NCBI GenBank assembly: GCA_021161555.1
Contig: JAGHAI010000095.1
Span: 1-37,559 of the forward strand
Direction: 5' to 3'
Source: a bacterium
Lineage (GTDB): Bacteria > UBP14 > UBA6098 > B30-G16
Length of the DNA stretch: 37,559 nt
A program made the translations under genes and the position numbers. Shown here in pieces: positions 2 through 19,557 of this stretch. The notes under the pieces were generated by a model. The model was not told the DNA's origin, did no database searches, and was given only the letters and a program-made list of their open reading frames with translations. Positions within the stretch are counted from its first letter, which is position 1. The number at the start of each line of letters is the position of its first letter.

Positions 2-3000
2 GGCCATTATTATAGGGATGGTTCTGGAAATGCCGCATATTGGAGCGAGCACAGCACAAGAAATATAAGAGTAGAAGTAGTTGATTCCGTCAATATCGCA
101 TCGACCACATTGTTGGGAACATTTGGCATCGGTGGAAATGCCGCATCGGGATATACTGTTCTAACAAGAAATTTTCACTGGCCATATCAGATATCGGGGC
201 AGGATTTCGTTCTGTATATAGATGGGACATATTTTACAAACAATACATCTTATAGCACAATTTATTGTGGCACTGGAGTTCCGCGTATCGCTCTTGATTC
301 TACTTATTTTATGGATAGTGATACATTTCGAGCAACCGACGGAGAACTTATGATAGAGTCCCACTGGCGTATTCCTCAGGGAACAGGGTATATCGATGTC
401 TATCAGGAACTCAAACCGGATACACTGGAAATTAGCAGCACAGTTGTTGGTTTAATAAGAATTAAATATAGAATTTTCAATAATGATATTACTGGTTCAC
501 ATACAATCGGTCTAAAATTACACATAGATATTCAGGTTGCTGGCGATGATGCTCCGGATGTCTCTATCGGTCCCACATATACAAGTAATGGTGTTATTGT
601 TCGGGGCTCAGATGTTCCTGGTTATTGGCAGGCATATCAGGATTATTTTGGTGGTGGAGAAGTGGCACGAGGAGTTTTGCGCGGAATGGGATGCACGCCC
701 CCTGATTTGTTTGCAATCGGTAATAATCCATTAGCTCTGGGGCAATTTATATGGATAAATCCAGATTGCGAAGATAGTGTATATTGGAATTATTTCATTG
801 ACAATCCCACATCTGATGTAGCAGCAGCCTGGCAGTGGGAACCTACTGCATTAAATCCCGGAGAAAATTTAACTTATATAACTTATTATGGCTTTGGCTA
901 CGCCGGTGTTGATACTGTTCCCATAATAGTTGATTTGAATGTGGACGAAATAGCCATAGATAGTTGCAGAATAATAGATACTACTACGACAGCGACATCG
1001 ATTATTTCTCAACAGGACCCATCTTTGCTTACCTATTACAATGATACGATTTGTATTTACCCTCCTTACCCCATAACAATTGATACCGTTGATTGGCCTG
1101 ATAGTATTGTTGGAGGATATATATTAGATTCTAATTGTATAGTTTTCGATAGCTTGCCTGCGTATCAGCCCATTACAGCTTTATGGACACTTAATGTTCC
1201 TTCCAGTTTATCATTAACTGGTTTAACCGATAGTATCTGTTATCATGCAAATTCTCCCAGTGCTGTTATTCCGACAGATGGTTGTCAGGGATTTCCTGTA
1301 ATACCAGCTATCTCTGGCATACCGCCAACTATTAATTTTTATAATGAACCGCCTTATTTCGTAAATTGTTCAACTTTTACAATCGATGTGGAATACACGG
1401 AAGATGAAGAAATAGTTATTTCTTCGTTTGTGCCAATTATAAATGGAATAGCGTCGCCGGAATATCTGCTTCATCCTCTGCCAAGCGACCCCAATCATGA
1501 CATATTTCATATAGTTCCACCGGGTTCGCTTCTCTTTGCAGATGAAACTCTTCTCGTGGAAATACCTTCTCCAAAGGATATCTATGGATGTGTGAACCCA
1601 GATACTTTGAGAACGACCGTTGTTCTGGATACTTCGCCGCCAGTCGTGAGCAACATTTCTCCCTGCGATACAATAGTTTCCGACCCATCTCAACCGATAT
1701 CTTTTCTCGTTATGGATTCGATTTCTGGTGTCAAGGAAGATAGCATTATATTTTCAGTACAAATCGATGGCAACAGTCCCGTTCAATTCCGTCCAGGAAT
1801 GCCCGGGGTATCTACATTCTCAAGCGATTCGCTTTCAATCATTGTCTCCTATGTACCTGGTTCTCCTTTCCCAAGTGAAACAACGGTTACTGTTTGTGTG
1901 GAACATGCCATCGACTATGTTGAAGTTTGTTCGGCAAATGTATTTGTGGATACGACCTGTTGTTCCTTCCTTGAAGATTATACCGCTCCGCGGGTGAATT
2001 TCATCACTCCGCCTGAAAGTGCATACATAAGTTGCGATACTCCTTATGTTTGCTTTGATGTTACCGACTTGAATGGAATCAGTTTGTGGCCCGATTCTAT
2101 GCTTCAGGTTAATATAAATGGATTTGTTTATGATGCTGGCGATTTGTATATGCAAATTGACACTCTCGATTCCGTAACATATCGTGTATGTGTGGAGGAT
2201 GTGTACAATGTCCCATATATTTCGGGAACAGATGTATGTGTGTTTGTTCAGTTGCTTTCTGACACTGTTGGGAATAGTTATGCCGATGCTGATTCTTATT
2301 GTTTTTCTCTTGATTTAGCTGGTCCCATCTTCTACGCGCCATCGCCACCAGCCGGGTCATTTGTCCCAGAGCCATCTGGTGTTACTATTTGCACTCTTTC
2401 GGTTCTCGATGCACTGACAGGAATTTCCGATAGCGGAATAGTTATCAGCGCTTATGTGAATGGCGTGCTTTATGGAACTCTGGATGAAACCGAATATGCG
2501 CTGGAAAGCGAAAATAGAATCATATTATTTCCAACAATGTCGGGAATAGAATATCTCGATACAATCAGATTTTGCGTTGATTCTCTATTCGACAATGCGC
2601 TACTATGCGGTCCTAATAATGTTGATTCCTCATATTGTGTAGAATACATTGTCGACAATATGCCGCCGGAAGTTGATTTAATACATCCTCCTGATAGTGC
2701 GCATTCTTCGTGTTGTGCTGGAGGTCCTATTTGTATCAGGATAACTGATATAAGTGGCGTGAACCCCGATGCCACATTATTGGAAATTGGTGGTGCAAGT
2801 GTGTCGGGAGCGGTGTGGACCTGGTTCCCCGATGACAGTATGCTGTGCGGAATAGTGCCGGCAACAGCGCTGTGTGATAGTGCCTGTGGAAGAATGAATA
2901 TAATTATCGCAACTGTTGCCGACTCAATTGGAAATGCTTCTCTCTATGCTGATACATTTTTCTATATTGTGGATAGGGAACCGCCCTATGTCGTTTCCAT

Positions 3001-6000
3001 ATATCCTCCGTGTGATACTCCAAGTGTCGCCTATGATTCCGTGTCTATTTCCTTTAAGGATGACTGCTCCTGGTTTATTGAGGATTCTACCTGTATAGTT
3101 TTATATCATCGTATGCGGGATTCAACAAGCTGGCAGGTGGATACTGCCTGGGGTGATAACCCTAATCTCACCTGGGCGTATGACTCCGCTACGGGCATTT
3201 ATACGGTGATTTTCTTTATGAACAATATTATGGAAAATTCCTGGGAAAGCGGAGACAGTGTTCGAATATGCGTTGAAAATCTATCCGATAGCCTCGATGT
3301 CGATGACTGCGGATTCAACACACTATCTGCTCCTGATAGTTGCTGTGCCATATATTTGAGTTCCGGTGGTCCAACATTCTCACTTGTGAGACCTCCCAGT
3401 GGTTCATACATATCCTGCACTGATACATTTCTCGTTGTATTTACCTGTCGGGATGAGCAGGGAGTTGATTCGTCTTCAATTGAGATGGTCTATCGTATAA
3501 ACGATGGGCTTCCTACCACGGTTACTTATCCTGACCCTTCGATATTGTTTGTCGGTGGAGCAGATAGCAGCGATGCGGATACTGTGTATTTTTCTCCACC
3601 GGTTATTCTTGCCGATGGCGAAAGTGTTTATGTCGAATTTAAATATGCTCACGATATGCTTGATATTCCTTCTGAAGCTAGTCGTGGTGGATGGTATCAT
3701 ATCGACCAGACGACACCCTACATATCTGGATTTGGTCCTGCGAGTGGTTCGGTTCTCACAGACCCTACACCTGATTTCTGGGCGGCTCTGGGAGATTTTG
3801 GAGCCGGATTGGATTATGAATCTCTATGCTTTATAGTGGATGGCACCGATACATACTGTGTCGATGGAACGAATGTTCTGTGGGGCGCTGGAGATACTGC
3901 ATATTTCCACACGGAAGGATTGGGACTGCATTTCTGCGGCGGTGATACGGTAAATATCTGCGTGATTGTTGCTGATGAGACGATGCCTATTGCTGTGGAT
4001 GACACTTCGCTTTGCCCACCGAACCTGCTCGAAAGCTGCTGGGATGTCACATTCGATACTGGCGCTCCTGTTCTGGTTCCTGTCAGTCCCGGCGATGAAT
4101 GGATTGTTACCTGTTCACCACTGGATGAAATCGTCGTCTCTGCTGTTGACAGCCAGGGAATTGACTGGAGCACATTCCACATTTTGATTGCGGATGCTTG
4201 CGGAGATACTTTTGATTATACATATCCGCTTCACATTTCGGTTTCCGGAGATAATGCCACAGTTACTCCTTCTCCCGCCATCAGCTGTGAAGGAACGGTT
4301 TCTGTTTCCGTGCAGGTTGAGGATATTTTGTGCAATATGACTTCCATCGATTATTCGTTTGTCATCGACCATACAGCGCCAGAGATAATATCTCTCTATC
4401 CGATGTGTGATAGTTTGTTCCTGGATATACCGACGGAGTTGAGAATTTATGCCTATGATTCTTTGAGTTATCCTGACCCTGCGCGTTGTTGTGTTGGTAT
4501 AATTGATACAACAGGCGCGGCAATTGAAGTTTGCGGAGATACATCTTCTGCGATAACGAATGTGGGCGATACGATAATTATTTCGCTTGATGCTCTGGGC
4601 ATCGGTTATAGAGGCGGTGATGAGGTCTGCTGGTGGATAAGTCAGCTTTCTGACTATTCCGATTTGTGCGACCCCAACTATACTTCCACTGGTGTTGGCG
4701 ATACCTGTTGTTTTGAGATTTCCTCTCAAGGTCCTCTGGTAGAATTGATAAGTCCTGATGCGGGGGATGATGGAGTGCTGTTCATTGGTTGTCTCTTCCC
4801 TGGAACGGACATCAGATTTTTAATTACCGACAGCGATGGTTTTGAGGAAGGCAGTATCAGGCTCATATCCATCTGTGGAACGGATACTGCTGTGGTTACG
4901 CTCGGTCCAAATCTTATACTTCTTGGGGATACTCTCATCTGGTCGCCGGCGAGCGACCCCTGTTCGGAATGTGATACTTTCATCGTCTCTGTGGAAGTGA
5001 TGGATAATCTTTCCAACCCGCAGAGACCAAATAGTTTTCCTATGGCAATCGACCGAACCCCGCCTGATATTGTGATATTGAATGCGTCTGCTTTTGACAG
5101 TGCATTTTCGCTCTCGCCGACCTGTTCCCTTTATTTCCCCGATAACTGTTCTGGTGCGGATTCTATGTCGGTGTGCTGTTCGCTTTATTCTGCTCTGGGC
5201 GGATGGTCTGCGTCGTTCTGCAATACGAATGATACTATAAGGTGGAGCGGCGATACGATGCTGATATTCACAGATGACTTTGATGTGCAACCACAGGATA
5301 CTCTGTTCATCTGCTTTGACCAGGTTTCTGACAATGTAGATACCTGCGTGAATACTGCTGTGCTCGATACCTGTTATTGGATTTATATTGCCCAGTTCGG
5401 TCCTGTTGTGACTTTTGTCGAACCCCTGCCCGATTCTATCGGGCTTGTGTGTCCGTCCGATTCGATTGTCGTTTCGTTCTATGACCCCGATGGATTGGAT
5501 ACCTCTACCGTTAATTTTGAAGTGAATGGGACGGTTTTGCCGATTGCCACAAATCCATATTGGATAAATGATACCACAATTGTCTATCTGCCTTCGTTTA
5601 CCTCGTCGCCGGAGACTATTGTGGTGTATGGTCAGGCGGATATGCTCGGCTATTCGAGTGAATCTGAGACACTTTTCATTTATTTTGATGACATTGCGCC
5701 GATTTCGACCTGGCTTTCGCCCGGTTCACCTATACCTGGCACTGTTCCCGCTGGAACACCAGATGTAATTCTACAAATCGAAGATTCTCTGCATTCCATC
5801 GATAGTTTGACGATTATATTTGTTATTGATGGAGATACTCATTATGTCTCCGATGAAATTCTTGAGTGGTTTAGAAGTGGTGATAGCCTTGTCTATCACA
5901 GTTCTGCAGCTTTCGACACATTTTTCGCCAATGATACATTTGACATCTGTCTCACCGCGGGAGATAGCACGGGCTGCGGATACTCGAATATTCTCGATAC

Positions 6001-8794
6001 CTGCTGGACTGTTGCTGTTTCTGCTGGTGCGGGACCGGAGCCATCGCTCATAATTCCATCTGTTGACAGCGCGTATATCGCCTGTCGTGATTCCTTCGTA
6101 ATTGCCTGGTATTGCGACGACCCCGAAGGACTGAGAACCGCAGGTGCACAAATCTCTATGCGGGTAAACGACGGGACAACTGTGATATATGATGATTTGT
6201 CAGGGCATATTTTCTATCGTGGGGATACGCTATTCTTCATTCCACCTGATACATTGTATTTCCCTGGTGGCGGATTTTCCGATGGAGATTCTTTCTTCGT
6301 TCGCATTGTCAGAGTGGAAGATGCTCTTGGAAATGTTACATCTGACCCAGTGGAATATGTCTTTTACATAGACTGGTCTGGACCGGAAGTTCTCGCCGAT
6401 GGTCCTGTTGGAGATGTCGTGGTTACTGCACCTGATATGTGGTTTAATCTGCACGACATCGATGGAATTGATACGACGACGGCTGTGGTTTCAGTATGGG
6501 TGAATGGGGTTCTATTGACCACTCTCCATTGGGGTAGCGATTCAATGAGCTGGCGCAGTCCCGATACTCTGGTTGTGTCTGGAATTCGTTTCCTTGGGGG
6601 CGACAGCGTCCGCGTGTGTCTGGATTCAATTGCAGATTCTCCAGATTATTGTGGACCGAATTGGACTACGGATAGTTGTTTCACCTTCTGGCTTTCGCAG
6701 GGTGGACCAACTGCCGAACTTCTCGTTCCTCTGGATGGGGCTACTATAACCTGTGATGAGATAGATATGCGGATTGCTATGTGCGACAGTCAGGGAATTT
6801 TGTATGACAGTTTGCTGATTATTGTTCAGCACGCAGCTTATGTCGATACATACGACTTTTCCGACATCGGCACGCTGATTGATACTATTATCGCCCCACC
6901 CACAGAAGAAGATATATGTGATACGATTATTGTTCACCCTGTTCCCATACACAACTTCCACGATGGCGAGACTGTCAGCGTTTCCCTTCGCACTATGGAC
7001 ACTTTGTTCAATCCATCCTTTGATTATAACTGGCAATTTTACATCGACCTTTCGGCGCCGGTGGGCGATAACTTTGTCCCCGCTGATGGGGAAACCATAT
7101 ACGACTGGAGCAGCGGTGTGTCGGCAACAATTTACGATGAAATCAGTTATCTCGATTATAATTCTCTATCCGTTGTCATCCTTGATAATGGAGTTCCCTG
7201 GCTTACATATGATTATGGGGATGCACCGGTCTCGTATAATTCCAGCGATTCCACATTTGCATTTTCCATCGCCGATGTTGGTTCTCTGTGGCACGAATTT
7301 CACCAGTATTGCATAAGGGTATTTGTTCAGGATACGACCGATTGGGAAATGTATTGCCCGCCCAACAGCGATACGATTGAATGGTGTTTCACCGTTGGCG
7401 ACGACGATACGACAGGTCCCGATGTGTTTTTCTACGAAATGCTCGGCGATACCTGTCTGTGGGATGCGATGAACCCGAGTTTTGTCATACAGTGCAGTTT
7501 GTGGGATACATCCGGGATATACGATGACAATACCGATACATCCGGGCAGGGAATTTTCGTGATAGTCGATACTTCGGATTGCCCAACGCTCACAGATGGC
7601 GGCTATCTCGAATTGGAACAGATGGTATATGACCCTTCCACTGGTTTTGCCTCAACGATTCCTGGCGCATTTGATTTATATCCGCCTGGAACCTGGCTTT
7701 ACTTTGTGATTTACGCCTACGATAATGACTTCGATTTCGATACCACCTTCGATAGGGCTCTGACGATTTCGGAATGTGGGAGTTGCTATTTCCACGAGAC
7801 TGACCCGCCTGAAGTCTGGGCAATTGACCCGCAGGATGGCTGGTATGTTTCGTGTCCGTGCGATAGTCAGAAAATAATCGTTGGTCTGTATGATGAGAAT
7901 GGCGTGTGGGTTTCGGAAGGCACTCTGGAAGTGAATGGCGCGCAATACCCTATCGGGACATCGCCCGAAATAATCGATACGGGTGCGCTTGCTTCCCCTG
8001 GAACTACTTTTGTTGTGTTTACACCAGATTCTGGCGTATGCTGGGAAAATGGAGAAACTGTTTTCGTAAAGGTATATGGAATAACGGATGTCTATATGAA
8101 TGTTATGACCGATACATTTTCATATAGTTTCATAGTTGATTGGGAACCACCGATAGTGGAATATCCCGAATGCTATGATACGACATTGTATCTCGAAGAA
8201 CTTACGGAGGTTGAAATTTCGATGTTTGACTCTCTTGCGGGGACGGATTCGTCCTCAATTGAAATTACTATTGAAGGGAAACGGCTTAACGGTGACACAT
8301 ATAGCTGGACATACACAGTCGGGGACAACGGTGTGGAATACATAGATTCAACTCAAACGGTGAAGTTGACGATGGCAATTCTGCCCAATCTTGAAATTGA
8401 CAACGAAGATTCCGTGTGGATAAGGGTGGACAATGTCTGCGATAGGACGCAATCCTGTGCGCCGAACTGTATTGACGAACCTTACGAATGTATAAAATTT
8501 ATCGCTGCTGAATTTGAATGTCGGGCGCATCCAAATCCGTTCACGCCGGATGGAAATAATGTCAACGATGTCGCTTTCTTCGATTATCCTAAACGATTTT
8601 TCGAAGATGCGACAATTTACATCTACGATATGCAGGGAGTTGAACTGCGAAAGATAGAAGTCGGTCCGGAGCATACATATACCTGGGATGGAAAGGATAG
8701 CCAGAACAATGAATGCAGACCTGGAGTTTATCTGTATGTCATCGAAGTGTATGGTGAAGTTATCTGCACGGGAACGGTCGTTCTCGCAAGATGA
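2..8794 (+). CDS. Giant secreted/surface protein, 5'-partial (>=2930 aa): N-terminal conserved domain, ~20 tandem Ig-like repeats, C-terminal CHU_C/gliding-CTERM-like (T9SS type B-like) domain
   Basis: The supplied ORF starts at an internal TTG (110), but frame 2 stays open to the window edge (GHYYRDGSGNAAYWSEHSTRNIRVEVVDSVNIASTT-LLGTFG...), so the true start is upstream. Repeats recur as '[T/G][P/G]P...P..GS.....D..GID..S'. The C-terminus 'HPNPFTPDGNNVNDV...IYDMQG...YTWDGKDSQNNECRPGVYLYVIEVYGEVICTGTVVLAR' matches the gliding/CHU_C-type domain. Confidence 0.9.
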   Translation, partial: GHYYRDGSGNAAYWSEHSTRNIRVEVVDSVNIASTTLLGTFGIGGNAASGYTVLTRNFHWPYQISGQDFVLYIDGTYFTNNTSYSTIYCGTGVPRIALDSTYFMDSDTFRATDGELMIESHWRIPQGTGYIDVYQELKPDTLEISSTVVGLIRIKYRIFNNDITGSHTIGLKLHIDIQVAGDDAPDVSIGPTYTSNGVIVRGSDVPGYWQAYQDYFGGGEVARGVLRGMGCTPPDLFAIGNNPLALGQFIWINPDCEDSVYWNYFIDNPTSDVAAAWQWEPTALNPGENLTYITYYGFGYAGVDTVPIIVDLNVDEIAIDSCRIIDTTTTATSIISQQDPSLLTYYNDTICIYPPYPITIDTVDWPDSIVGGYILDSNCIVFDSLPAYQPITALWTLNVPSSLSLTGLTDSICYHANSPSAVIPTDGCQGFPVIPAISGIPPTINFYNEPPYFVNCSTFTIDVEYTEDEEIVISSFVPIINGIASPEYLLHPLPSDPNHDIFHIVPPGSLLFADETLLVEIPSPKDIYGCVNPDTLRTTVVLDTSPPVVSNISPCDTIVSDPSQPISFLVMDSISGVKEDSIIFSVQIDGNSPVQFRPGMPGVSTFSSDSLSIIVSYVPGSPFPSETTVTVCVEHAIDYVEVCSANVFVDTTCCSFLEDYTAPRVNFITPPESAYISCDTPYVCFDVTDLNGISLWPDSMLQVNINGFVYDAGDLYMQIDTLDSVTYRVCVEDVYNVPYISGTDVCVFVQLLSDTVGNSYADADSYCFSLDLAGPIFYAPSPPAGSFVPEPSGVTICTLSVLDALTGISDSGIVISAYVNGVLYGTLDETEYALESENRIILFPTMSGIEYLDTIRFCVDSLFDNALLCGPNNVDSSYCVEYIVDNMPPEVDLIHPPDSAHSSCCAGGPICIRITDISGVNPDATLLEIGGASVSGAVWTWFPDDSMLCGIVPATALCDSACGRMNIIIATVADSIGNASLYADTFFYIVDREPPYVVSIYPPCDTPSVAYDSVSISFKDDCSWFIEDSTCIVLYHRMRDSTSWQVDTAWGDNPNLTWAYDSATGIYTVIFFMNNIMENSWESGDSVRICVENLSDSLDVDDCGFNTLSAPDSCCAIYLSSGGPTFSLVRPPSGSYISCTDTFLVVFTCRDEQGVDSSSIEMVYRINDGLPTTVTYPDPSILFVGGADSSDADTVYFSPPVILADGESVYVEFKYAHDMLDIPSEASRGGWYHIDQTTPYISGFGPASGSVLTDPTPDFWAALGDFGAGLDYESLCFIVDGTDTYCVDGTNVLWGAGDTAYFHTEGLGLHFCGGDTVNICVIVADETMPIAVDDTSLCPPNLLESCWDVTFDTGAPVLVPVSPGDEWIVTCSPLDEIVVSAVDSQGIDWSTFHILIADACGDTFDYTYPLHISVSGDNATVTPSPAISCEGTVSVSVQVEDILCNMTSIDYSFVIDHTAPEIISLYPMCDSLFLDIPTELRIYAYDSLSYPDPARCCVGIIDTTGAAIEVCGDTSSAITNVGDTIIISLDALGIGYRGGDEVCWWISQLSDYSDLCDPNYTSTGVGDTCCFEISSQGPLVELISPDAGDDGVLFIGCLFPGTDIRFLITDSDGFEEGSIRLISICGTDTAVVTLGPNLILLGDTLIWSPASDPCSECDTFIVSVEVMDNLSNPQRPNSFPMAIDRTPPDIVILNASAFDSAFSLSPTCSLYFPDNCSGADSMSVCCSLYSALGGWSASFCNTNDTIRWSGDTMLIFTDDFDVQPQDTLFICFDQVSDNVDTCVNTAVLDTCYWIYIAQFGPVVTFVEPLPDSIGLVCPSDSIVVSFYDPDGLDTSTVNFEVNGTVLPIATNPYWINDTTIVYLPSFTSSPETIVVYGQADMLGYSSESETLFIYFDDIAPISTWLSPGSPIPGTVPAGTPDVILQIEDSLHSIDSLTIIFVIDGDTHYVSDEILEWFRSGDSLVYHSSAAFDTFFANDTFDICLTAGDSTGCGYSNILDTCWTVAVSAGAGPEPSLIIPSVDSAYIACRDSFVIAWYCDDPEGLRTAGAQISMRVNDGTTVIYDDLSGHIFYRGDTLFFIPPDTLYFPGGGFSDGDSFFVRIVRVEDALGNVTSDPVEYVFYIDWSGPEVLADGPVGDVVVTAPDMWFNLHDIDGIDTTTAVVSVWVNGVLLTTLHWGSDSMSWRSPDTLVVSGIRFLGGDSVRVCLDSIADSPDYCGPNWTTDSCFTFWLSQGGPTAELLVPLDGATITCDEIDMRIAMCDSQGILYDSLLIIVQHAAYVDTYDFSDIGTLIDTIIAPPTEEDICDTIIVHPVPIHNFHDGETVSVSLRTMDTLFNPSFDYNWQFYIDLSAPVGDNFVPADGETIYDWSSGVSATIYDEISYLDYNSLSVVILDNGVPWLTYDYGDAPVSYNSSDSTFAFSIADVGSLWHEFHQYCIRVFVQDTTDWEMYCPPNSDTIEWCFTVGDDDTTGPDVFFYEMLGDTCLWDAMNPSFVIQCSLWDTSGIYDDNTDTSGQGIFVIVDTSDCPTLTDGGYLELEQMVYDPSTGFASTIPGAFDLYPPGTWLYFVIYAYDNDFDFDTTFDRALTISECGSCYFHETDPPEVWAIDPQDGWYVSCPCDSQKIIVGLYDENGVWVSEGTLEVNGAQYPIGTSPEIIDTGALASPGTTFVVFTPDSGVCWENGETVFVKVYGITDVYMNVMTDTFSYSFIVDWEPPIVEYPECYDTTLYLEELTEVEISMFDSLAGTDSSSIEITIEGKRLNGDTYSWTYTVGDNGVEYIDSTQTVKLTMAILPNLEIDNEDSVWIRVDNVCDRTQSCAPNCIDEPYECIKFIAAEFECRAHPNPFTPDGNNVNDVAFFDYPKRFFEDATIYIYDMQGVELRKIEVGPEHTYTWDGKDSQNNECRPGVYLYVIEVYGEVICTGTVVLAR
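1315..8508 (+). repeat. Protein-level tandem Ig-like repeats (about 20-21 units of ~100-120 aa) in alternating A/B types
   Basis: Unit starts read by eye: IPPTINFY, SPPVVSNI, TAPRVNFI, AGPIFYAP, MPPEVDLI, EPPYVVSI, GGPTFSLV, TTPYISGF, GAPVLVPV, TAPEIISL, QGPLVELI, TPPDIVIL, FGPVVTFV, IAPISTWL, AGPEPSLI, SGPEVLAD, GGPTAELL, SAPVGDNF, TGPDVFFY, DPPEVWAI, EPPIVEYP. They are divergent at sequence level and not DNA-level repeats. Confidence 0.8.
8511..8791 (+). other. C-terminal CHU_C / gliding-motility-associated CTD-like domain (putative T9SS sorting signal)
   Basis: FECRAHPNPFTPDGNNVNDVAFFDYPKRFFEDATIYIYDMQGVELRKIEVGPEHTYTWDGKDSQNNECRPGVYLYVIEVYGEVICTGTVVLAR: FTP(N/D)G..(I/V)ND, WDG, G.Y.Y.I and terminal GTVxLxR pattern. 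Confidence 0.75.
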
Positions 8795-8908: not shown

Positions 8909-11900
8909 ATGGCGAAAATCATATATAGAATAACAACTGTTTCGCTGATTTTGCTTTTGGGCATTGTCTTTGCCGATTCATCATCCGATAGAAAGGCGAG
9001 GTTGTTTGGAAAAAATTCTTCCGATGAAGTGAAGATTGAAATTACTTCTTCAAATGATGATATTGGTGTTCTTGTTGAAGGAACCGGTATGTTTTCCATT
9101 GGAACGAGCACCGGGAAGGCGCTTCTCTATGGTTATCCGTATTCTGCGAGAACGAGCCATTGCCACTTCTATGTTGACGGCGATGTTGCAGGAACCTACA
9201 GCGATTCCAGTGATGTTCATCCAGTGCCGGCTGAACTCATTGAATTTCCTCATCTCGTCGGAGATACAGTTATATGTAAATGGCTATTTAACGGCGTAGA
9301 ATTTTCGCAAAAGTTGATTCCCGTTTATATAGGCGAAGATGCGCAAATACGAATAGAATACAACGCCACGAATGTAGATGCTACATCTCATCTTGTTGGT
9401 CTATTGCTTTTCCTCGATACGATGATAGGCACGAACGATTGCGCACCTATTGCCACACCTGTTGGTTATTTTGCGACAGAACAGCAGTTTATGGGAGAAC
9501 TGCCTTCTTTCTGGCAGGCGTTCGAAGAGAGCCCGTTTCAGGATGAAACTTATCTTGTCGGTCAGGGAACGCTTTCGGGGTGGTCTGCAACGCCGCCCGA
9601 CATCTTATTATATGGAGATTTCTGGCATTATCATTCTACCTGGTGGGATTATTCCTTCGTAGGTGGAATATACAGCGATAGTTCGGTTCTTCTGCGATGG
9701 AATGCCCATCTTCTTCCCGCTGGCGAATCGAGGACTTTTATAACATATTATGGCATAGGTTCCACGGCAAGGTCGCTTGGCGAAGTTTCCCTTTCCATCA
9801 CTGCGCCAGCACAGATTATGCCATCGGGGTGTTCTGGTTTTTACCCCGATACATTCGTCGTGAATTTGCTCGTTGGCTGCACCGATACATTGCGCGGAGC
9901 AGTTGCTAACATCGAACTGCCATCATTTCTTCGTCTGCTTGACGATGCAGAAAAACCTATTTCGCCTGCTGTTTTGATGCCTGGTGGAATTGGAACTGCG
10001 TCGTGGAATGTGACTGTGAATTTGCCTTCAGCAAGCGCTGTTGATTCTTTGATGGTCGAACTCTATGCGGCTGGATATTCTCCCGTCGCAGTATCGAGAG
10101 AAATTTCTATCGTCAGGTCGAATGGCATTCCGCCTGATATTTCGCTGATTTCAGAAATTCCGCCTTCGCTGGAAACAGATTCAATCACTGTTTCGTTCAA
10201 TATATCCGATTCGGACGGCATCGATACGACTTCGATTTCTGTCCTCCTTGATGGAGAAGCACTGCCCTTCGATTGGTCTTATCCTGTGCTGCGAGTTCAT
10301 CTTTCGGGGCTGACCGCCGCTTCTCATCATCTCGAAATTCCTGGCATCAAAGATATATACGGATGCACAGCAGAACCTTTCGTGGTGGACTTTATCGTAA
10401 ACCCGCCATCTCCGCCGCAATTTTCCGTATTAACGCCAGAAGTGGGAAGTTTTACCGCCTGCGCCGATGACACGATAAAAATTCTCGTCATTTCCGAAGG
10501 GGAATGGGACATCGCCGACTTCTCGCTCAATCTCGACGGTTCACTGCTCCCGCTCGGCAGATTGGGTGATACGCTTATGACATTCTACGATGCCCTTTCC
10601 GATGGTGAACACACTATTGAAGTTTCATATAGCGGTGGGGGAGAAACCGTCGATTCTGTCTGGAATTTTTTCATCGATAGAACTCCACCTTACATAAATT
10701 TATCTTCGATGATTTTTGAACTGCGCACCCCTTCGGATTTGATTTCATTTTCCGTTGATGATGACGGCGCAGGTGTGGATTTTTCCGAAATCGCAGTTCA
10801 GATTGGTTATGGAGATGACACAGTTTCGTTATCATCTACTTCTCCTGGAATATCGGTGGACGATGGAAGGCTTGGCATTTTGCTCTCGGAAACAGGGCTA
10901 TATTTTGGTGGTTGTGCAGAAATCACAGTCTCGCTCAACATTCCCGATAGCACAGGGAAGTGTGGACCAAATGTTCTCGATACTGTGGCATTGCGAACGG
11001 AAGTTCCCTGCACTCCGCCGGAAATTTACCTGCTGAGTCCAACGGGTGCGACCTCCTGTGATAGCATCAATGTTGCGATTTTGCTCATCGACGATGAGGG
11101 CATCGTCGCCGATTCTGCTTATGTAATTTTTGGCGGAGTGAGATATGATATTGGAAGTCCGTATTTATATCTATCAGGCGACACACTATTTTTCACTATT
11201 TTAGTTGTAGAGATTTCAGCAGGGGAACACAATATAGATGTGGGCGGAATTACTGATAGTTGGGGAAATTCAATTGTTGAAGGGACTTCTATAAACATTT
11301 ACATAGACAGAGAACCGCCGGTAATAGATGATATACTGCCGGATAGTGTCCTGTATGGTTCTGAATCGGTTAGTTTTGTCTGCCACGATGATGTCAGCGG
11401 AATTTCAACTGAAAGAAGTTTCATCGTATGTGATGGCGATACTATTTCTGTGGGAACAGGACTCACTTTTGAGGATGGTGTATTATCTGTTCCTTCTGCG
11501 GTCTGGCTTTCTGCTCTCGGTGGGGACAGTCTTACTATTTGCTGCCACATAGTTGACGATGTCGTGGAATGCGCCCCCAATTTTGTGGATTCCTGTGTCG
11601 TTTTCCCTGTGGAACAGTCAGGTCCTGCTGCTACTATGATTTATCCCCAGCCGAACAAATTTCTCGGATGTGAATCTCAGAATTTAAAAATCCTCTGGTT
11701 CGACCCCGATGGCATCGATAGAACTGCTTCCACAATATCCTTCGGTGGAGAAGTTTTTCCTTCAGATGATGCCAGATTTCACTGGAATGGAGATACTGTT
11801 TCTTTTAACATCGATTTGACCGAATTTGAGGACAATGTTTCGATTGTTCTTCACGGAGTTGATGAAATCGGTTTTTCTTCCGATACTTCATTTGTCTTCG

Positions 11901-13696
11901 GCATCGACAGGACTTCGCCTTCAATTTCGGTGATTTCGCCTGTTCCTGGTTCACGCATTTCATATCCCTATGAACAGTGGAAAATTCTTCTTGATGATAA
12001 TAAATCTGGCATTGACCCTGGCGCAATCTCAATAATTGTGGATGGCGACCTTTTCACTCTGCTGGATGGCGCTGTCAATTTGCGGGGGGATACTTTAATT
12101 TTCGATGCCAATGTTGCCGATATGGATTTCGGCAATGCCGTCGATGTTGCAGTTCATTGTTCGGATAATTCAGCAGGTTGTCCAAACGATGCGCAAATGG
12201 AATGGTCTTATGAAGTTTTTCATCCCGATATGTGGTGGGAATTATTGTCGCCTCTGGGCGTTGTTTCTTGTGATACGGTAAATTTGAAAATAGCGGTTCA
12301 CACAAATTTCGATGTGGATTACTCCGATGTTCACTGTATCGTCGCCGAGAATTCTGTTAATTACGATGTTTCAAATGATACGATAACAGCGGAAATTCCA
12401 GGGACGATGCTCACAAGCGGAGTTAATGCGGTGTCTTTAACTGGATTTTCCAATGCTGAAAGTGGCTTGCCGGTTGATGATACGATTTTTGCCGCAATTA
12501 TATACGATGCGCTGCCGCCTTCGGTAGTTCCCGTTTATCCTGTGCCCGGTTCCCGCGTTCCTGCGGGAAGTCAGTTGATGGCTGTTGTATATGATGACAT
12601 ATCCGGTGTGGATGTGGCAGGTGTTATGGTAGATGTAAATGGAAACGCTCTTTCTCTTTCTTCTGACAATTGGCGCGGAGATACAGTTGTGGTTGCCATT
12701 CCACGCGATATAACTGGCGATGTTGAAGTTTGCATCACCGCTGCGGATATGCCGCAAGTGTGCGACCCAAACGAGATGAGATTGTGCTGGCAGTTCACAA
12801 TTCCAGGCGCAGGACCGCAGATTACAATTATTGAGCCGACAAATGGCGCATATTCACATAATAGGCGCCAGAAAATTGTCGCAAGTTTATGCGGTGAAAA
12901 TGAAATAAATATCGATGACATAACTATGACTGTGAATGGTTCTATTTATGATATTCACAGTGGTTTTTTGACATTTTCGTCAGGGACGCTTGAATTTACC
13001 CCTTCTGAGGAATGGAATGATGGTGAAGAAGTGGAGTATAAAATCAGATGCACCGATGAACTTGACCTTTCGACCGAAATCTTTGGGAATTTTAAGTGCG
13101 ATTTTTCACCTCCAACCTGTTCAAATCCTTTTCCAGAAGGTGTCGTTCAGGGGGTTCCTCAAAAAATTTCTATCGACATTACGGATGATGGCGTTGGCGT
13201 TGACCCGCAATCAATCGTATTCAGGGTGGGAGAATTATTTATTGAATTTGACAATTATGCTTTGATTTATGACGGCACGAAGGCGATTCTCGACCTGTCC
13301 CGCGCTGGTGTGCATTTGAGCGCACTTGATACAATCGATGTCGGTGTTATCGCTGTGGATTACAATACTGGATATGGGGCTCAAAATGTTATGGAAAATT
13401 GCGAGTTCTGGTTTTTCCCTGTAAAAAGTGGTTGTTCCGTCGGTCCGACGCCCTTTACTCCCAATGGGGATGGCATAAATGACAATGTCGAATTTGCCGT
13501 CTATTCGGATGAGACTATAAAGGTATCCATATATACGATGGATGGAGTGGCTGTTAGAGAACTTGAAGGGCAATATGTGGTTCTCTGGGATGGACGGGAT
13601 AATTATGGAAGAAATGCCCCGGCGGGACCATATCTTTACATAGTTGAGGGCGGCGGAAAGATTTTGAAAAAGGGCACTGTGGTTATAGCGCGCTAA
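8909..13696 (+). CDS. Large secreted Ig-like repeat protein (1595 aa), paralogue of the upstream giant protein, with CHU_C-like CTD
   Basis: ATG after a weak CGGAG Shine-Dalgarno. Signal peptide MAKIIYRITTVSLILLLGIVFADS. N-terminal domain aligns with the upstream protein (e.g. FWQAFEESPF...GQGTLSGWSATPPDILLYG...PAGESRTFITYYGIG vs YWQAYQDYFG...ARGVLRGMGCTPPDLFAIG...NPGENLTYITYYGFG). About 11 Ig-like repeats. C-term GPTPFTPNGDGINDNVEF...VLWDGRDNYGRNAPAGPYLYIVEGGGKILKKGTVVIAR. Confidence 0.92.
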   Translation: MAKIIYRITTVSLILLLGIVFADSSSDRKARLFGKNSSDEVKIEITSSNDDIGVLVEGTGMFSIGTSTGKALLYGYPYSARTSHCHFYVDGDVAGTYSDSSDVHPVPAELIEFPHLVGDTVICKWLFNGVEFSQKLIPVYIGEDAQIRIEYNATNVDATSHLVGLLLFLDTMIGTNDCAPIATPVGYFATEQQFMGELPSFWQAFEESPFQDETYLVGQGTLSGWSATPPDILLYGDFWHYHSTWWDYSFVGGIYSDSSVLLRWNAHLLPAGESRTFITYYGIGSTARSLGEVSLSITAPAQIMPSGCSGFYPDTFVVNLLVGCTDTLRGAVANIELPSFLRLLDDAEKPISPAVLMPGGIGTASWNVTVNLPSASAVDSLMVELYAAGYSPVAVSREISIVRSNGIPPDISLISEIPPSLETDSITVSFNISDSDGIDTTSISVLLDGEALPFDWSYPVLRVHLSGLTAASHHLEIPGIKDIYGCTAEPFVVDFIVNPPSPPQFSVLTPEVGSFTACADDTIKILVISEGEWDIADFSLNLDGSLLPLGRLGDTLMTFYDALSDGEHTIEVSYSGGGETVDSVWNFFIDRTPPYINLSSMIFELRTPSDLISFSVDDDGAGVDFSEIAVQIGYGDDTVSLSSTSPGISVDDGRLGILLSETGLYFGGCAEITVSLNIPDSTGKCGPNVLDTVALRTEVPCTPPEIYLLSPTGATSCDSINVAILLIDDEGIVADSAYVIFGGVRYDIGSPYLYLSGDTLFFTILVVEISAGEHNIDVGGITDSWGNSIVEGTSINIYIDREPPVIDDILPDSVLYGSESVSFVCHDDVSGISTERSFIVCDGDTISVGTGLTFEDGVLSVPSAVWLSALGGDSLTICCHIVDDVVECAPNFVDSCVVFPVEQSGPAATMIYPQPNKFLGCESQNLKILWFDPDGIDRTASTISFGGEVFPSDDARFHWNGDTVSFNIDLTEFEDNVSIVLHGVDEIGFSSDTSFVFGIDRTSPSISVISPVPGSRISYPYEQWKILLDDNKSGIDPGAISIIVDGDLFTLLDGAVNLRGDTLIFDANVADMDFGNAVDVAVHCSDNSAGCPNDAQMEWSYEVFHPDMWWELLSPLGVVSCDTVNLKIAVHTNFDVDYSDVHCIVAENSVNYDVSNDTITAEIPGTMLTSGVNAVSLTGFSNAESGLPVDDTIFAAIIYDALPPSVVPVYPVPGSRVPAGSQLMAVVYDDISGVDVAGVMVDVNGNALSLSSDNWRGDTVVVAIPRDITGDVEVCITAADMPQVCDPNEMRLCWQFTIPGAGPQITIIEPTNGAYSHNRRQKIVASLCGENEINIDDITMTVNGSIYDIHSGFLTFSSGTLEFTPSEEWNDGEEVEYKIRCTDELDLSTEIFGNFKCDFSPPTCSNPFPEGVVQGVPQKISIDITDDGVGVDPQSIVFRVGELFIEFDNYALIYDGTKAILDLSRAGVHLSALDTIDVGVIAVDYNTGYGAQNVMENCEFWFFPVKSGCSVGPTPFTPNGDGINDNVEFAVYSDETIKVSIYTMDGVAVRELEGQYVVLWDGRDNYGRNAPAGPYLYIVEGGGKILKKGTVVIAR
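10124..13427 (+). repeat. About 11 tandem Ig-like protein repeats, again alternating two types
   Basis: Unit starts: IPPDISLI, SPPQFSVL, TPPYINLS, TPPEIYLL, EPPVIDDI, SGPAATMI, TSPSISVI, PDMWWELL, LPPSVVPV, AGPQITII, SPPTCSNP. Confidence 0.78.
13428..13693 (+). other. CHU_C / gliding-CTERM-like C-terminal domain
   Basis: CSVGPTPFTPNGDGINDNVEFAVYSDETIKVSIYTMDGVAVRELEGQYVVLWDGRDNYGRNAPAGPYLYIVEGGGKILKKGTVVIAR. Confidence 0.8.
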
Positions 13697-13831
13697 CTAA
13701 TTAGAGAGTTTTTAATGCAGTTGGAGGGGTTTGAGAATTGAGGCTTTTATGTGATATTTTCTGGAGTTATGTGTAGTGTGTGGGTAATTTTAGTGCGATG
13801 AAAAAGTTTTTCGAATAAAGGAGAGTGGTTT

Positions 13832-16753
13832 ATGTTTAGATTGTTCTTTATTATATCGGGAATATTCGCATTGTTGTTTGCGCAGAGTGGTATGCAGATG
13901 GAGAGTATTCGCAGTATGGGAATGGGCGGTGCTTCTGTTGCGGTTGCTGACGATGCGTATGGTGCTGCCACAAATCCTGCAGGGTTGATACAGTTGAATA
14001 GGACGCAGTTTTCAGCGGCATATACGAAGTTCTTCGCAGGGCTCGATGTCGGCTCAATCTCCGAAGGGAGTTTTTTCATCGCGCCGAGACCTTTTGGCAA
14101 AAATACATTTTCGCTGGCAGGTTCGTATCTCTTTCAGGATATCTTTTCGCAGATGAAATTGAGCATATCTGCTGGAAGGAGATTTATTCGTTTTAAAAAT
14201 AATATTGGTTTCTTTTCAATTGCTGTTTCTGGCGATTTGTATAGAGTCGGTTATAATCTGGACAATGCCACTTATGACGAAGAGCACGGTGATAATCCTT
14301 CCGACCCGCTTTTTGCGAATTATGGAGAGAACAAGATGGCGTTTGGTGCGAGCATCAGCGCTTTCGCTAAATACAATAAGGCTACATTTGGCTTAAAAGT
14401 CAGCGATTTGAATGAGCCGAACATTTCGCTCAGCGGCGCTTCTGCGGGAAAACTTCCAAGGCGGATGCGCGCCGGGTTCGCATATACATATAGAGATTTA
14501 ATACTTGGCGCTGTGGATATGGATATGCCACTTCGTTCTGCTACTATGCAGGACCCCATAAAACTTGCCATTGGTGTGGAAGGAAGGCTTTTTGAAAACA
14601 AGTTGTTTCTGCGCGGTGGATATGATATGGGCATTGGCGAAGGTGCAACAGGAACGGTTAATTTTGGATTGGGTTTCAGAAGTATGACAAATCACAACTT
14701 CGGTTTCGATTACGCAATTGCCATACCGACAGCGCATATTTCAGGGCATCCACATCATAGATTTGGCGTATATTATGGCTTGCCAATTCCTCCGCCGAAA
14801 AAGATAGACCTTGTCGTGTATGGAGACAGTTTGAGACCTGTTCCAGGTATATTGCGGCCTGACTCACTGGGAACAATTCACGCGCTTGTTGGCAATATCG
14901 GTGATGATGATGCTAAAAATTTCTGGATAAGGGCGTTTTACTTCGATGAAGATAGCAATTACGGGCTTATAGAAGCGAAGAAAATTGATATTTTGCCGGC
15001 GAATGAAAATATGGATATAGATTTCAACTGGACGCCCCCAAAAAAGGGGTATTACAATGTATATGTTTCCGTAAATGACCTTGAAACCAAGAAAGCGGAG
15101 AGAAAGCCAGGTGAACTTCCTGAGATAAATAGTTCTAATAATATAGCATTTATTCAGGTTCCTGTATTCAATCCGCCTGGTATGGCGGAGAACCCGAAAT
15201 TGTTGAAGAGCGAATTGAAGTTGAACGAAATCAATTATATTCGCGAAGAAGTTCCTATGGTGCCGTTTATATTTTTCGATAATGTCAGTTCCGATGTTCC
15301 AGTTCGATTTGATGTTGTGTTGAATGAAATAGCGAAGAGATTAAAACGAAACCCGAATGTGGCTGTGAAGATAAAAGGTTATGTTGACAAGCCTTCTGAG
15401 GGGGGAGAAGTTGGGAATCTGGCTACGCTGGCTTATGCACGAGCAAAAGCAGTGAAGAATGCACTTATTGCAAAGGGTGTTTCTGCGGAGCAAGTTATGG
15501 TCGTATCCACCGATGAGTATGATTATACTCAGCCCCGTGCGGGAAAGAAGCGTAGGAGACGGACTTCCGCCTGGGAAGAAAAAATAGCTCAGGAGAACCG
15601 TCGTGCAGAGATGGAAACGCAGATAATTGATTTTCCCGATACCATTTTGGTATGCTGTGTAAATTATCGTGTCGGTGAGGTGGAAATTCCACCAGAAGGC
15701 AAGCTGGAAGTTGAAAATTCAATGAGATTGACGAAGGACTTACTCGAACTGAATAAAGATATAAACATTCTCTTCCACGGGATGAGTTCACCCGAAGATG
15801 GGGCAAGCTGGGAGCGTGCTTTCGACCGCGCTGTGAGAGTTAGAAATTATGCTGGCAGTCTTGTTTCTCCAAAACTTGCAAGGAGGATGATGGTATTTGC
15901 TTCCGCTCCCGATTCGGTTGATATGGTCAGCATTATTATGACAGGTGATGCCGTTATTTATCGTCCTCGAAGTTCAACCAAGGCAGCGCAGGGATTCCAG
16001 ATAGCGGCAAGGGAAAAGAATGAGATAGAATTGAATGGAATTTTTTCCGATGCGGGAATTGATTCCTATTATGTGGCGATTGTGGATGACATAGGTATGG
16101 AATTCAGGCTTTTATCTGCTGGTAGAGGTCAGCCGCCGTCGTCGGTTGTGTGGAATTGGCTTGGAAATGACGGAGAACCGCCTGAACCAGGGAAAAATTA
16201 TCATGCATATATATATCTAAGAGATAAGGTGGGGCAAACATTTGAGGCAAGTTCTGAACCTGTGCGGGTCAATGTTACCCAGACGGAGAAGCGTCAGGAA
16301 CTCATAATTGTAAACTTTACCTTCGGCGGAACCTTCCCGCAGTCGCCTTATCTTGAAGGAAGAATGGAACGCATCGCATCAGATTTCATCGAGAAAGCTG
16401 TTCAGAGAAAATCGGTATTCAAAGTAACCGTGGGTGGACACACCGATATAATTGGAAGTCCTATTGTGAACCAGCGGCTGAGCCTCGACAGAGCAAGAAG
16501 GGAATACAGAAACATAAGAAGGATGCTGATGTCCCTGCTGAGACTGAAAGACAATAAGGAATTGGATAGGTGGCTCGCAGAACAGAAGGTCAGCATTGAT
16601 GTTAAAGGCTTTGGATTTTCCAAGCCCTATGTAGTGCGAGTCTGGGAAAGGGGATACTTCAGAAACTTCACCGTTGGCGATAATGAATATCCTGAGGGAA
16701 GATTCATCAACAGACGCGTTTCTCTTGAATACAACATAATCAAAAGATATTGA
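13832..16753 (+). CDS. PorV/PorP-SprF-like outer-membrane beta-barrel fused to CARDB-like, FlgD-like and OmpA-like domains (973 aa)
   Basis: Good RBS (AAAGGAGAGTGGTTTATG). Signal peptide MFRLFFIISGIFALLFAQ. N-term 'SIRSMGMGGASVAVADDAYGAATNPAGL' (PorV/UPF0164/FadL-like) and 'VSDLNEPNISL'. CARDB-like 'GTIHALVGNIGDDDAKNFWIRAFYFDEDS...FNWTPPKKGYYNVYVSVND'. OmpA-like C-terminus 'FKVTVGGHTDIIGSPIVNQRLSLDRARREYRNIRRML...VKGFGFSKPYV...FINRRVSLEY'. Confidence 0.85.
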   Translation: MFRLFFIISGIFALLFAQSGMQMESIRSMGMGGASVAVADDAYGAATNPAGLIQLNRTQFSAAYTKFFAGLDVGSISEGSFFIAPRPFGKNTFSLAGSYLFQDIFSQMKLSISAGRRFIRFKNNIGFFSIAVSGDLYRVGYNLDNATYDEEHGDNPSDPLFANYGENKMAFGASISAFAKYNKATFGLKVSDLNEPNISLSGASAGKLPRRMRAGFAYTYRDLILGAVDMDMPLRSATMQDPIKLAIGVEGRLFENKLFLRGGYDMGIGEGATGTVNFGLGFRSMTNHNFGFDYAIAIPTAHISGHPHHRFGVYYGLPIPPPKKIDLVVYGDSLRPVPGILRPDSLGTIHALVGNIGDDDAKNFWIRAFYFDEDSNYGLIEAKKIDILPANENMDIDFNWTPPKKGYYNVYVSVNDLETKKAERKPGELPEINSSNNIAFIQVPVFNPPGMAENPKLLKSELKLNEINYIREEVPMVPFIFFDNVSSDVPVRFDVVLNEIAKRLKRNPNVAVKIKGYVDKPSEGGEVGNLATLAYARAKAVKNALIAKGVSAEQVMVVSTDEYDYTQPRAGKKRRRRTSAWEEKIAQENRRAEMETQIIDFPDTILVCCVNYRVGEVEIPPEGKLEVENSMRLTKDLLELNKDINILFHGMSSPEDGASWERAFDRAVRVRNYAGSLVSPKLARRMMVFASAPDSVDMVSIIMTGDAVIYRPRSSTKAAQGFQIAAREKNEIELNGIFSDAGIDSYYVAIVDDIGMEFRLLSAGRGQPPSSVVWNWLGNDGEPPEPGKNYHAYIYLRDKVGQTFEASSEPVRVNVTQTEKRQELIIVNFTFGGTFPQSPYLEGRMERIASDFIEKAVQRKSVFKVTVGGHTDIIGSPIVNQRLSLDRARREYRNIRRMLMSLLRLKDNKELDRWLAEQKVSIDVKGFGFSKPYVVRVWERGYFRNFTVGDNEYPEGRFINRRVSLEYNIIKRY

Positions 16754-19557
16754 TGAGGAAATTCCATTACATATTGTTATTTCTCCTGCTATCTGTGGCA
16801 TTTTGCAGAAAAATTCCTTATTCGGGGAAACCATATCCAACTGACCCGGTCATCCATTGGGATGGTGGCTACTATTTTAGCGCGTTTTTTTCAAAACCTA
16901 TGCTCGGCGTGGGAGACAGATTATATTCTGCTTCTTTAGATTTTTTTACCCCACAATTTTTTTGTTGCGGTTCTTTTGGGTTATCCCTGGTGCATCTTGG
17001 AAATTCATACTGCAATTTTCAGCGTTTTAACGGATTTTATATATCGCCCAAATTCCCCACAGGAAATATTGCTCTTTCGGGATGGATTGGTCCAGGCGTT
17101 GTGCATAGTGGATATTCTTCTGAAAATTTTTATCGTTTCGACAATTCAGACCCGCTTTTCCAATCTAAGACCAACAAATTCGCTCCTTTCATAGACGCAG
17201 GATTCGTGGCGCAAAGTGATTTAGCGATGTTGTCAGTATGGGCGAAAAATATTCTTCAGCCAAATCTTTCCCTCAACGGAGTTGATGATGGCAAAGAACC
17301 GTTATCCGTCGAAGGATATATTGCAGCAAAATTATATCGCAACGCTGTTCCCTGGATTGCTGTGGAATATGATGGCATCTCGCAAAAGATTTTGCCGGCA
17401 ATTGGTGTGGGATATAGATATAATGGCTGGCGTTTTTCTGCGGGATATCGAAGGAGCGGAATTTGGGCTGATATTTCCGTTCCCATAGTTCCACAGAGAA
17501 TGTGGATGAATTACGATGCGGGATATCATCTTGCTTCTGCGGAAGTCAGCCGCGCGGGCATAACTTCGCATAGAATTGGAGTTGAAATGGTGCTTCCTGA
17601 AAAAATAAGGAAATTGCCACGATTACCGAACTTCGTGATTGAACCAGGGGAACTGCCCGATATCTGGTCCAAGGACACAGTTCATCTCAGCGTTGCAGTT
17701 ATCAACCGTTCGGATGTGGAATCCGATTCTACTACGGTGTCTTTCTTTGCACTGAGCCCAAATGAGACACTTAGAGTTGGTATTGTGAAAGTTCCAAGGC
17801 TGAAATCGGGCGAGGAGTTTCTCGCGAGTTATGTCTGGGTTCCACCTCATCTTGGAACTTTTAATTTCATATTTACTGTGGATGATGACGGAACTCGTTT
17901 TCCTGGTATAAATGGGCGAGTGGCTGAAACAAACGAAGAGGACAATCAATATACTCACGAATTCCTCGTGTTCGGCGATATGAAGGCAACTGTATCGCCG
18001 CTAATTCAGGTCCTTACAATTCCAAGTATAACTTTTATTCGTGAAGAACAACCGATAGTGCCGCTGGTTTTTTTTAAGGAGAAATCCGCCGAAATTCTTC
18101 CAAAATACGATACGACATTGTCCATCATTGCTCAGCGGATGATTGACAACCCCGATGTAGTTCTCGAACTGCGTGCCTATGTGGATGTTGAAACAGATGG
18201 AGATTCTATTTCTCTGGTAAAAAAAAGGGCAGAAGCGGTGAAGGATAGACTTGTTACACTTGGGACACCGCCTTCTTCTGTGATAATTGTTTCCCCTGAT
18301 GAATATGATTACAAAAAACCCCGAATTTCTACTGTTAGAAAGAATATTCCTCCCAGAGATAAGAGAATGGTTCAGGAAGAGAACCGCCGCGTGGAGATGG
18401 TTGCGAGGTTTGAGGGAATACCTCATCTCGTATATGAATTTCCGCTTGAACCATCCGCCGAGGAAATTCCCAATAGAGATAGGGCAGTTCTCGATACCGT
18501 TGCGGATAAACTTGCAGGAGTTCTATGTTCAGATCATAGTGCGATAATTCTCATTGAGGGTATTGTTGCTAAGGGAGGGGACCCCGTTGAATATCTCAGA
18601 ACTCTTGATATCGTCCGAAAATATCTTTTACCAAGACTTCAGGTATTTTGTCCGCTGGAAAGAATTCCTATTGCAATTGCCGGCAAGGGGAAACGCTCGA
18701 AGGTGAGAATCTGGCTTTCTGCTGAGGCTATTATTTTCAAACCCATTGAAAATGCCGAAGCCGCCAAGGAGTTTAAAATCCCCGATGATATGGGGAGAAA
18801 TCTTATCGTCATTGCCACTGCAAATCCTGAGATGATTAGAAGATATAATATATTTGTCGTAAATGAAGTTAATGGTGATACTATCAGAAAATTTGCAATG
18901 GGCGATGGTCCACCGCCCTCGCAGGTGGTTTGGGATTGGAAGGATGACAATGGAAATCTTATCGACCCCAGGGGGAAATATCGAATAGTTCTTGTCCTCG
19001 AAGACCAGTTTGGACAGATTTACAATATTCAATCTGAACCTATATGGGTGATGGTGGAAAAATGGGAGCATAGATTTGAATCGTCAATTGTGGTTCAGTT
19101 TTCCTTCGACGAAACAGTAAGCGAGTCAAAATATCTTGAAAGTCGGCTCGAGGATTTTGCAAACCGCATCAAAGAAAAAGCACAGGTCAAAGGGAATGAA
19201 ATAAAAATCACACTTACAGGTCATACCGATGTCATAGGAACTCCGATGCGAAATCAGAAACTTTCCGAAGAGCGCGCAAAAAAGGAATTGAAGAATTTTC
19301 AAAACATTTTGCAATACACACTTGGGCTCGACACACCGGAAGAACTTCGCAAATGGCTTAAGGAAAACAATGTCACGCTCACATATCGCGGTGTCCGCGA
19401 TAAAGAGCCTTATGAAATTGAGCGATTTAGAAATGGAAAGTTCGAAAGGGTTCTCATCGGTGACGACAATACTCCAGAAGGGCGAAGTGTCAACCGCAGA
19501 GTTGTCATAGATGTTGAAGAAAAAGTATCGAAGATAAATCCATCTCGCAACCAATAA
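16753..19557 (+). CDS. Paralogue of the preceding gene: PorV/PorP-like barrel + CARDB-like + OmpA-like domains (~934 aa)
   Basis: Stop/start overlap TGATG (TGA 16751-16753, ATG 16753-16755). The supplied ORF begins one codon earlier at a TTG. 'AKNILQPNLSLNG' barrel motif; CARDB-like 'DTVHLSVAVINRSDVESDSTTVSFFALSPNET...YVWVPPHLGTFNFIFTVDDDG'; OmpA-like 'IKITLTGHTDVIGTPMRNQKLSEERAKKELKNFQ...RSVNRRVVIDVEEK'. Confidence 0.85.
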   Translation: MRKFHYILLFLLLSVAFCRKIPYSGKPYPTDPVIHWDGGYYFSAFFSKPMLGVGDRLYSASLDFFTPQFFCCGSFGLSLVHLGNSYCNFQRFNGFYISPKFPTGNIALSGWIGPGVVHSGYSSENFYRFDNSDPLFQSKTNKFAPFIDAGFVAQSDLAMLSVWAKNILQPNLSLNGVDDGKEPLSVEGYIAAKLYRNAVPWIAVEYDGISQKILPAIGVGYRYNGWRFSAGYRRSGIWADISVPIVPQRMWMNYDAGYHLASAEVSRAGITSHRIGVEMVLPEKIRKLPRLPNFVIEPGELPDIWSKDTVHLSVAVINRSDVESDSTTVSFFALSPNETLRVGIVKVPRLKSGEEFLASYVWVPPHLGTFNFIFTVDDDGTRFPGINGRVAETNEEDNQYTHEFLVFGDMKATVSPLIQVLTIPSITFIREEQPIVPLVFFKEKSAEILPKYDTTLSIIAQRMIDNPDVVLELRAYVDVETDGDSISLVKKRAEAVKDRLVTLGTPPSSVIIVSPDEYDYKKPRISTVRKNIPPRDKRMVQEENRRVEMVARFEGIPHLVYEFPLEPSAEEIPNRDRAVLDTVADKLAGVLCSDHSAIILIEGIVAKGGDPVEYLRTLDIVRKYLLPRLQVFCPLERIPIAIAGKGKRSKVRIWLSAEAIIFKPIENAEAAKEFKIPDDMGRNLIVIATANPEMIRRYNIFVVNEVNGDTIRKFAMGDGPPPSQVVWDWKDDNGNLIDPRGKYRIVLVLEDQFGQIYNIQSEPIWVMVEKWEHRFESSIVVQFSFDETVSESKYLESRLEDFANRIKEKAQVKGNEIKITLTGHTDVIGTPMRNQKLSEERAKKELKNFQNILQYTLGLDTPEELRKWLKENNVTLTYRGVRDKEPYEIERFRNGKFERVLIGDDNTPEGRSVNRRVVIDVEEKVSKINPSRNQ

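Follow-up and report, generated by a model that had tools for sequence, protein, structure and literature searches.

Proteins that appear to fuse a PorP/SprF-type barrel to a PorE-type peptidoglycan anchor are encoded beside giant surface proteins in a small uncultivated bacterial phylum

Why should two giant repeat proteins be followed directly by two proteins that join an outer-membrane barrel to OmpA-like domains, and could the latter be the secretion or attachment partners of the former? The window analyzed here, i.e., the whole stretch of 37,559 bases, is the complete contig C125 of a 2.3-Mb, 234-contig assembly. A preliminary description of this DNA had read the order as substrate, substrate, barrel, barrel on one strand, and four successive plus-strand open reading frames were indeed found (2-8794, 8909-13696, 13832-16753, and 16750-19557). 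The third of these, P0003, begins 135 bp past giant 2, the start codon of the fourth, P0004, shares bases with the P0003 stop codon (TGATG), and beyond the pair lies a convergent grpE gene. Promoter and terminator scans gave a signal near the shuffled expectation, and a search for plasmid-borne relatives of the module found none. On the minus strand, at 21451-23094, the window also encodes a 547-aa protein with a DUF6055 domain and a weak type A C-terminus (Por_Secre_tail 24.2 bits, under cut-off) that, judged from its sequence, is likely a separate T9SS type A substrate adjoining the module. The features of the two giants are as follows.

2..8794, +: giant 1 (P0001), 2930 aa, Ig-like repeats, 5' end beyond the contig start
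455..898, +: N-terminal domain common to both giants, 31.6% identity over 148 aa
8516..8791, +: type-B-like C-terminal domain (CTD) of giant 1 (HPNPFTPDGNN..WDGKD..GTVVLAR), CHU_C E 1.7e-6
8909..13696, +: giant 2 (P0002), 1595 aa, with Ig-like repeats and an N-terminus resembling a signal peptide
13430..13693, +: type-B-like CTD of giant 2 (FTPNGDGIND..WDGRD..GTVVIAR), CHU_C E 6.1e-8

Both giants are strongly acidic, giant 1 very much so (421 D/E vs 74 K/R, with 3.4% Cys). Giant 1 is almost complete, lacking its start only, as its counterparts in relatives measure ~2,900-2,990 aa, and its sequence makes it a candidate T9SS surface protein. The CHU_C/gliding-CTERM-like ends seen earlier on both giants held up: CHU_C exceeded its Pfam cut-off in both, and our CTD profile A1 scored 130.6 bits for giant 1 and 107.7 bits for giant 2. 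TIGR04131 also matched both CTDs but below its cut-off (29.6 bits for giant 1, against 35). In a wider CTD sample, CHU_C matched 12 of 13 and TIGR04131 11 of 13.

The two proteins encoded downstream are paralogous and share one domain order: signal peptide, barrel, CARDB, OmpA, a degenerate OmpA-like fold, Ig, and C-terminal OmpA.

13832..16753, +: P0003, putative fused shuttle-anchor 1, 973 aa
14006..14779, +: P0003 barrel, residues 59-316, 14-strand outer-membrane barrel of PorP/SprF-PorV type (PF11751, AF2, Foldseek)
14807..15088, +: P0003 CARDB, residues 326-419 (PF07705; Foldseek 3idu_A, E 1.1e-6)
15143..15625, +: P0003 first OmpA-like domain (PF00691), DAP-binding Asn not conserved
15644..15943, +: P0003 degenerate second OmpA-like fold, read only from the secondary structure of the AlphaFold model
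15983..16252, +: P0003 Ig/FlgD-like domain between OmpA domains (model; FlgD_ig matches 3 of 43 homologues)
16262..16747, +: P0003 C-terminal OmpA with invariant D872, N880, and R887 (PorE-type peptidoglycan triad)
16750..19557, +: P0004, putative fused shuttle-anchor 2, 935 aa
16867..17598, +: P0004 barrel, residues 40-283 (Foldseek PorV 8gl6_F, E 6.3e-6)
17653..17955, +: P0004 CARDB (PF07705, E 3.1e-6)
18010..18411, +: P0004 first OmpA-like domain (profile match and AlphaFold model)
19042..19527, +: P0004 C-terminal OmpA with invariant D827, N835, and R842 (Foldseek PorE C-terminal domain 6top, E 4.2e-5)

The preliminary description had proposed a PorV/PorP-like barrel rather than an unrelated porin or FadL transporter. 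Foldseek matched the P0003 barrel to FadL (E 9.5e-9) and to the T9SS protein PorV (8gl6_F, E 4.6e-8), and placed PorV ahead of FadL (E 4.0e-5) for P0004. Fold alone cannot separate PorV from FadL because both have the same fold, and sequence profiles decide. The PorP_SprF family PF11751 matched P0003 with 29.2 bits against a cut-off of 22.3 (E 8.5e-7), remained below cut-off in P0004 (E 0.061), and reached up to 72.4 bits in other fusion homologues. Among the 43 homologues, matches were obtained with the PorP family model TIGR03519 in 37, with the PorV family model in 29, with PF11751 in 27, and with FadL/TodX in a single one (at E<=0.001); P0003 itself scored 13.8 bits with FadL/TodX PF03349, whose cut-off is 29.7. 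Neither P0003 nor P0004 reached the TIGR03519 cut-off, and none of the fusions was seen to attain the NCBIfam cut-off for PorP or PorV. A profile of the fusion family matched PorV among solved structures (E 2.9e-8), and a viral structure library gave no useful match for the barrel. We rejected a FadL transporter identity on these sequence profiles, common though the fold is, and the PorV/PorP-like assignment stands.

The proteins were richer in domains than first described: the barrel and OmpA parts are both present, but there are two clear OmpA domains and a degenerate third fold, with CARDB and Ig domains between. OmpA and CARDB exceeded their Pfam cut-offs in both proteins. AlphaFold2 models built from alignments of 43 sequences (A3, for P0003) and 38 sequences (A4, for P0004) had mean pLDDT values of 86.4 and 85.1, with low pTM (0.49 and 0.52), so that the models do not settle how the domains lie relative to one another. 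The Asp-Asn-Arg triad of the C-terminal OmpA domain is invariant in all 43 and all 38 sequences, and its spacing of 8 and 15 in P0003 and P0004 is identical to that of PorE, where Asp576, Asn584, and Arg591 hold peptidoglycan DAP (PMC7192894). The DAP-binding Asn is absent from the first OmpA domain of P0003, as read from its sequence.

The distribution of the fused family was explored in 17 genomes from four families of this small uncultivated phylum. All 17 encode it, with 5-9 matches each at E<=1e-40, some being contig-end fragments. Nearly all PF11751 matches within the phylum fall inside fused frames or their fragments cut at contig ends, the exceptions being three weak stand-alone matches (G003:C126, G006:C378, and G011:C197). 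Outside the phylum, all seven PF11751 matches are in stand-alone frames of 331-440 aa, and 62 genomes of other phyla yielded barrel-only or OmpA-only pieces and no full-length relative of P0003. Two genomes (L096 7592-11619 and L097) encode a 1053-aa glucodextranase-C/CHU_C-like protein and then a stand-alone 289-aa PorV-family barrel, which is the conventional arrangement. The outgroup genome G053 (L090 8076-9527) encodes a 483-aa protein where, as in the fusions, a PorV-family-like barrel is joined to an OmpA domain; unlike them, it matched no CARDB or Ig, and no CTD-B neighbor was seen. It is possibly a simpler form of the fusion. The proteins appear to be a natural, phylum-wide fusion of a PorP/SprF shuttle and a PorE-type anchor, which in better-studied bacteria are separate proteins. 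A literature search, with most subscription papers and all preprints outside its scope, found no earlier description of a PorP-OmpA fusion.

Gene neighborhoods were compared for pairing with CTD-B genes. Six genomes contain 39 full-length fusions, leaving 33 assessable loci once four second tandem members and two fusions at contig edges are set aside. Allowing one small intervening gene, a CTD-B gene was found next to the fusion at 22 of the 33 loci (19 upstream and 3 downstream). If each locus is granted a 3% chance, which is generous, the binomial P is ~4e-26 overall, a figure that treats orthologous loci as independent; the single-genome values (P ~1e-5 to 1e-4; ~1e-5 in G009 and G010) are safer because these loci are not independent, and even they reject chance adjacency. 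Loci around fusions supplied the seed of the CTD profile, but the adjacency is no product of this choice, since the strong matches of the profile are for the most part at other places. The giant-giant-fusion-fusion order recurs in G003, G009, G010, and G011, and giant and barrel genes are neighbors in the four sampled families, so the idea that they might not be found together elsewhere can be set aside. The suggested 2:2 pairing did not prove to be a rule, as the P0004 orthologue of G004/G005 lies beside one different giant of ~3,800-4,000 aa.

The type of neighbor also follows the clades of the fusion tree, with 8 changes vs 17.8 in shuffles, and CTD distances correlate with barrel distances (r 0.74; none of 5000 within-genome shuffles as high). 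Judged from these trees, the match shows that CTD and barrel are inherited as a unit; it is not proof of co-adaptation, and shared inheritance of linked genes could be the alternative cause. About one third of the loci (11 of 33) have no CTD-B neighbor, and of the CTD-B genes roughly two in three have no adjoining fusion. In the CTD tree, several of these orphans fall together with a single clade of paired CTDs (L037/L060/L066; SH-aLRT 96), and we therefore predict that they probably share the shuttle of a paralogue, much as Fjoh_1677 serves three orphans in Flavobacterium johnsoniae (PMC12618676). The 17.5-kb contig G000:C11 (L102) is filled by two giant CTD-B genes in convergent orientation (2681 and 2965 aa) and has no fusion gene. 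A CTD-B gene at the end of G000:C23 and a fusion gene at the start of G000:C66 belong to matching clades and are probably one locus split by the assembly.

Could the fusions instead be general outer-membrane-to-peptidoglycan tethers or porins of the OmpA/OprF kind, sharing an operon with surface proteins only incidentally? We consider this unlikely. It would suit their multiple copies, the FadL fold common to the barrel, and the two paralogue clades that have no CTD-B neighbor, but it is opposed by the PorP/SprF-PorV profile matches, with FadL found in one homologue of 43, and by an adjacency to CTD-B genes that far exceeds chance even within G009 or G010. As to what the unpaired paralogues adjoin, a clade represented by L048 (6499-8414), L054 (6174-8013), and L062 comes after small membrane-anchored proteins and has no CTD-B neighbor; these small proteins are PilN/PilO-like by eye, and the two that were scanned had no Pfam match. 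A further paralogue clade, at L044, L051, L035, and L058, is followed by large proteins of surface type that have Ig or FG-GAP domains but no strong type-B CTD.

The T9SS core, which the preliminary description had asked after, was found in part. SprA is encoded in 16 of the 17 phylum genomes (15 over cut-off) and PorU exceeded its cut-off in 9 of the 9 tested, but GldM/PorM (TIGR03517) was detected in none of the 17, while the same model gives 362 bits in another genome. A divergent GldM homologue in the phylum is possible. That no detectable GldM accompanies SprA and PorU in these genomes weighs against the model favored below, in which secretion needs a source of energy. One tentative, and on balance improbable, idea is that T9SS export in this phylum runs without a GldLM-type motor, a permanently wall-tethered shuttle extracting the CTD from SprA and holding it, with peptidoglycan as its anchorage in place of a PorKN ring or a moving track.

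The presence of PorU, together with many type-A-like CTDs, raises another reading, in which the fusions play a PorV/PorQ-like part in the type A attachment complex and act with PorU on many substrates, not on adjacent cognates. P0003 does score higher with the PorV family model than with TIGR03519 (55.8 vs 38.8), and weak type-A-like CTDs occur in proteins encoded beside some fusion clades. However, this genome has a separate PorV/PorQ-family gene over cut-off close to sprA and on the same contig, the PorP model matches 37 of the homologues against 29 for PorV, and the neighbors mainly carry type-B-like CTDs, all of which makes the type A role quite doubtful. That the two giants are no T9SS substrates at all and end in an ordinary FlgD-like Ig domain is very improbable: the FlgD_ig profile matches them (23.7 and 18.5 bits) and TIGR04131 stays under its cut-off, but CHU_C does not, the domain sits at the C-terminus in every aligned CTD-B case, and SprA and PorU are encoded.

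The model that we favor, and regard as probable, is that P0003 and P0004 are dedicated PorP/SprF-type T9SS shuttles fused to a PorE-like peptidoglycan anchor and hold the giants statically. This is essentially the fused SprF-like and PorE-like partner proposed at the outset, and it is supported by the observed domains and profiles, by the triad and the adjacency, and by the genes for SprA and PorU. Sec would take the giants across the inner membrane, and SprA, which the genome encodes, could be their way through the outer one. The barrel of the cognate fusion would then bind the type-B-like CTD leaving SprA, as homology, conserved adjacency, and matching clades suggest. The CTD would remain on the barrel with the Ig array displayed outside, and the CARDB-OmpA-Ig-OmpA stalk would span the periplasm, its C-terminal OmpA domain predicted from the triad to grip diaminopimelate in the peptidoglycan. 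The giant would thus be held at the wall and not carried on a gliding track. SprF is linked to GldK on the moving track by a twin-Cys disulfide (PMC12635249). No Cys is conserved across 39 fusion homologues, the CC at 608-609 of P0003 being common only to its G003 orthologue, and the lack of a counterpart to the SprF link fits static attachment. With GldM not found either, attachment to a gliding SprF-type track was rejected.

If correct, this model suggests how members of an uncultivated phylum may expose proteins of up to ~4,400 residues on the cell surface, and it makes the idea of static vs mobile type B adhesins directly testable with a single protein. The PorE-PorP-substrate complex that was proposed from pull-downs in Porphyromonas gingivalis and operons in F. 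johnsoniae also gains support of an independent, evolutionary kind from the fusion of shuttle and peptidoglycan anchor; since this fusion unites both parts in one chain, the same role as that of these complexes is strongly suggested. The locus resembles SprB-SprF in that a giant repeat protein with a type B CTD is followed by a PorP/SprF-family barrel, but differs in its peptidoglycan anchor, in having no conserved Cys, and in a phylum where GldM was not detected. PorE and PorP of P. gingivalis are found in a complex with PG1035, a type B protein (PMC9143113). There, too, a type B CTD protein, a PorP barrel, and an OmpA-type peptidoglycan binder are proposed as one anchored unit, but as separate polypeptides, and PorE, a lipoprotein, carries TPR, beta-propeller, and CRD-like domains, none of which had Pfam matches among the 43 homologues, where CARDB, OmpA, and Ig domains are found instead. 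A similar gene organization is that of the five F. johnsoniae operons with a type B substrate, an SprF-like shuttle, and a PorE homologue, for which a static wall-anchored complex has been proposed (PMC12618676). In Fjoh_3952-Fjoh_3951-Fjoh_3950 and similar operons, the substrate gene is likewise followed directly by the SprF-like shuttle and the PorE-like gene; three genes are used there vs two here, where shuttle and anchor form one chain.
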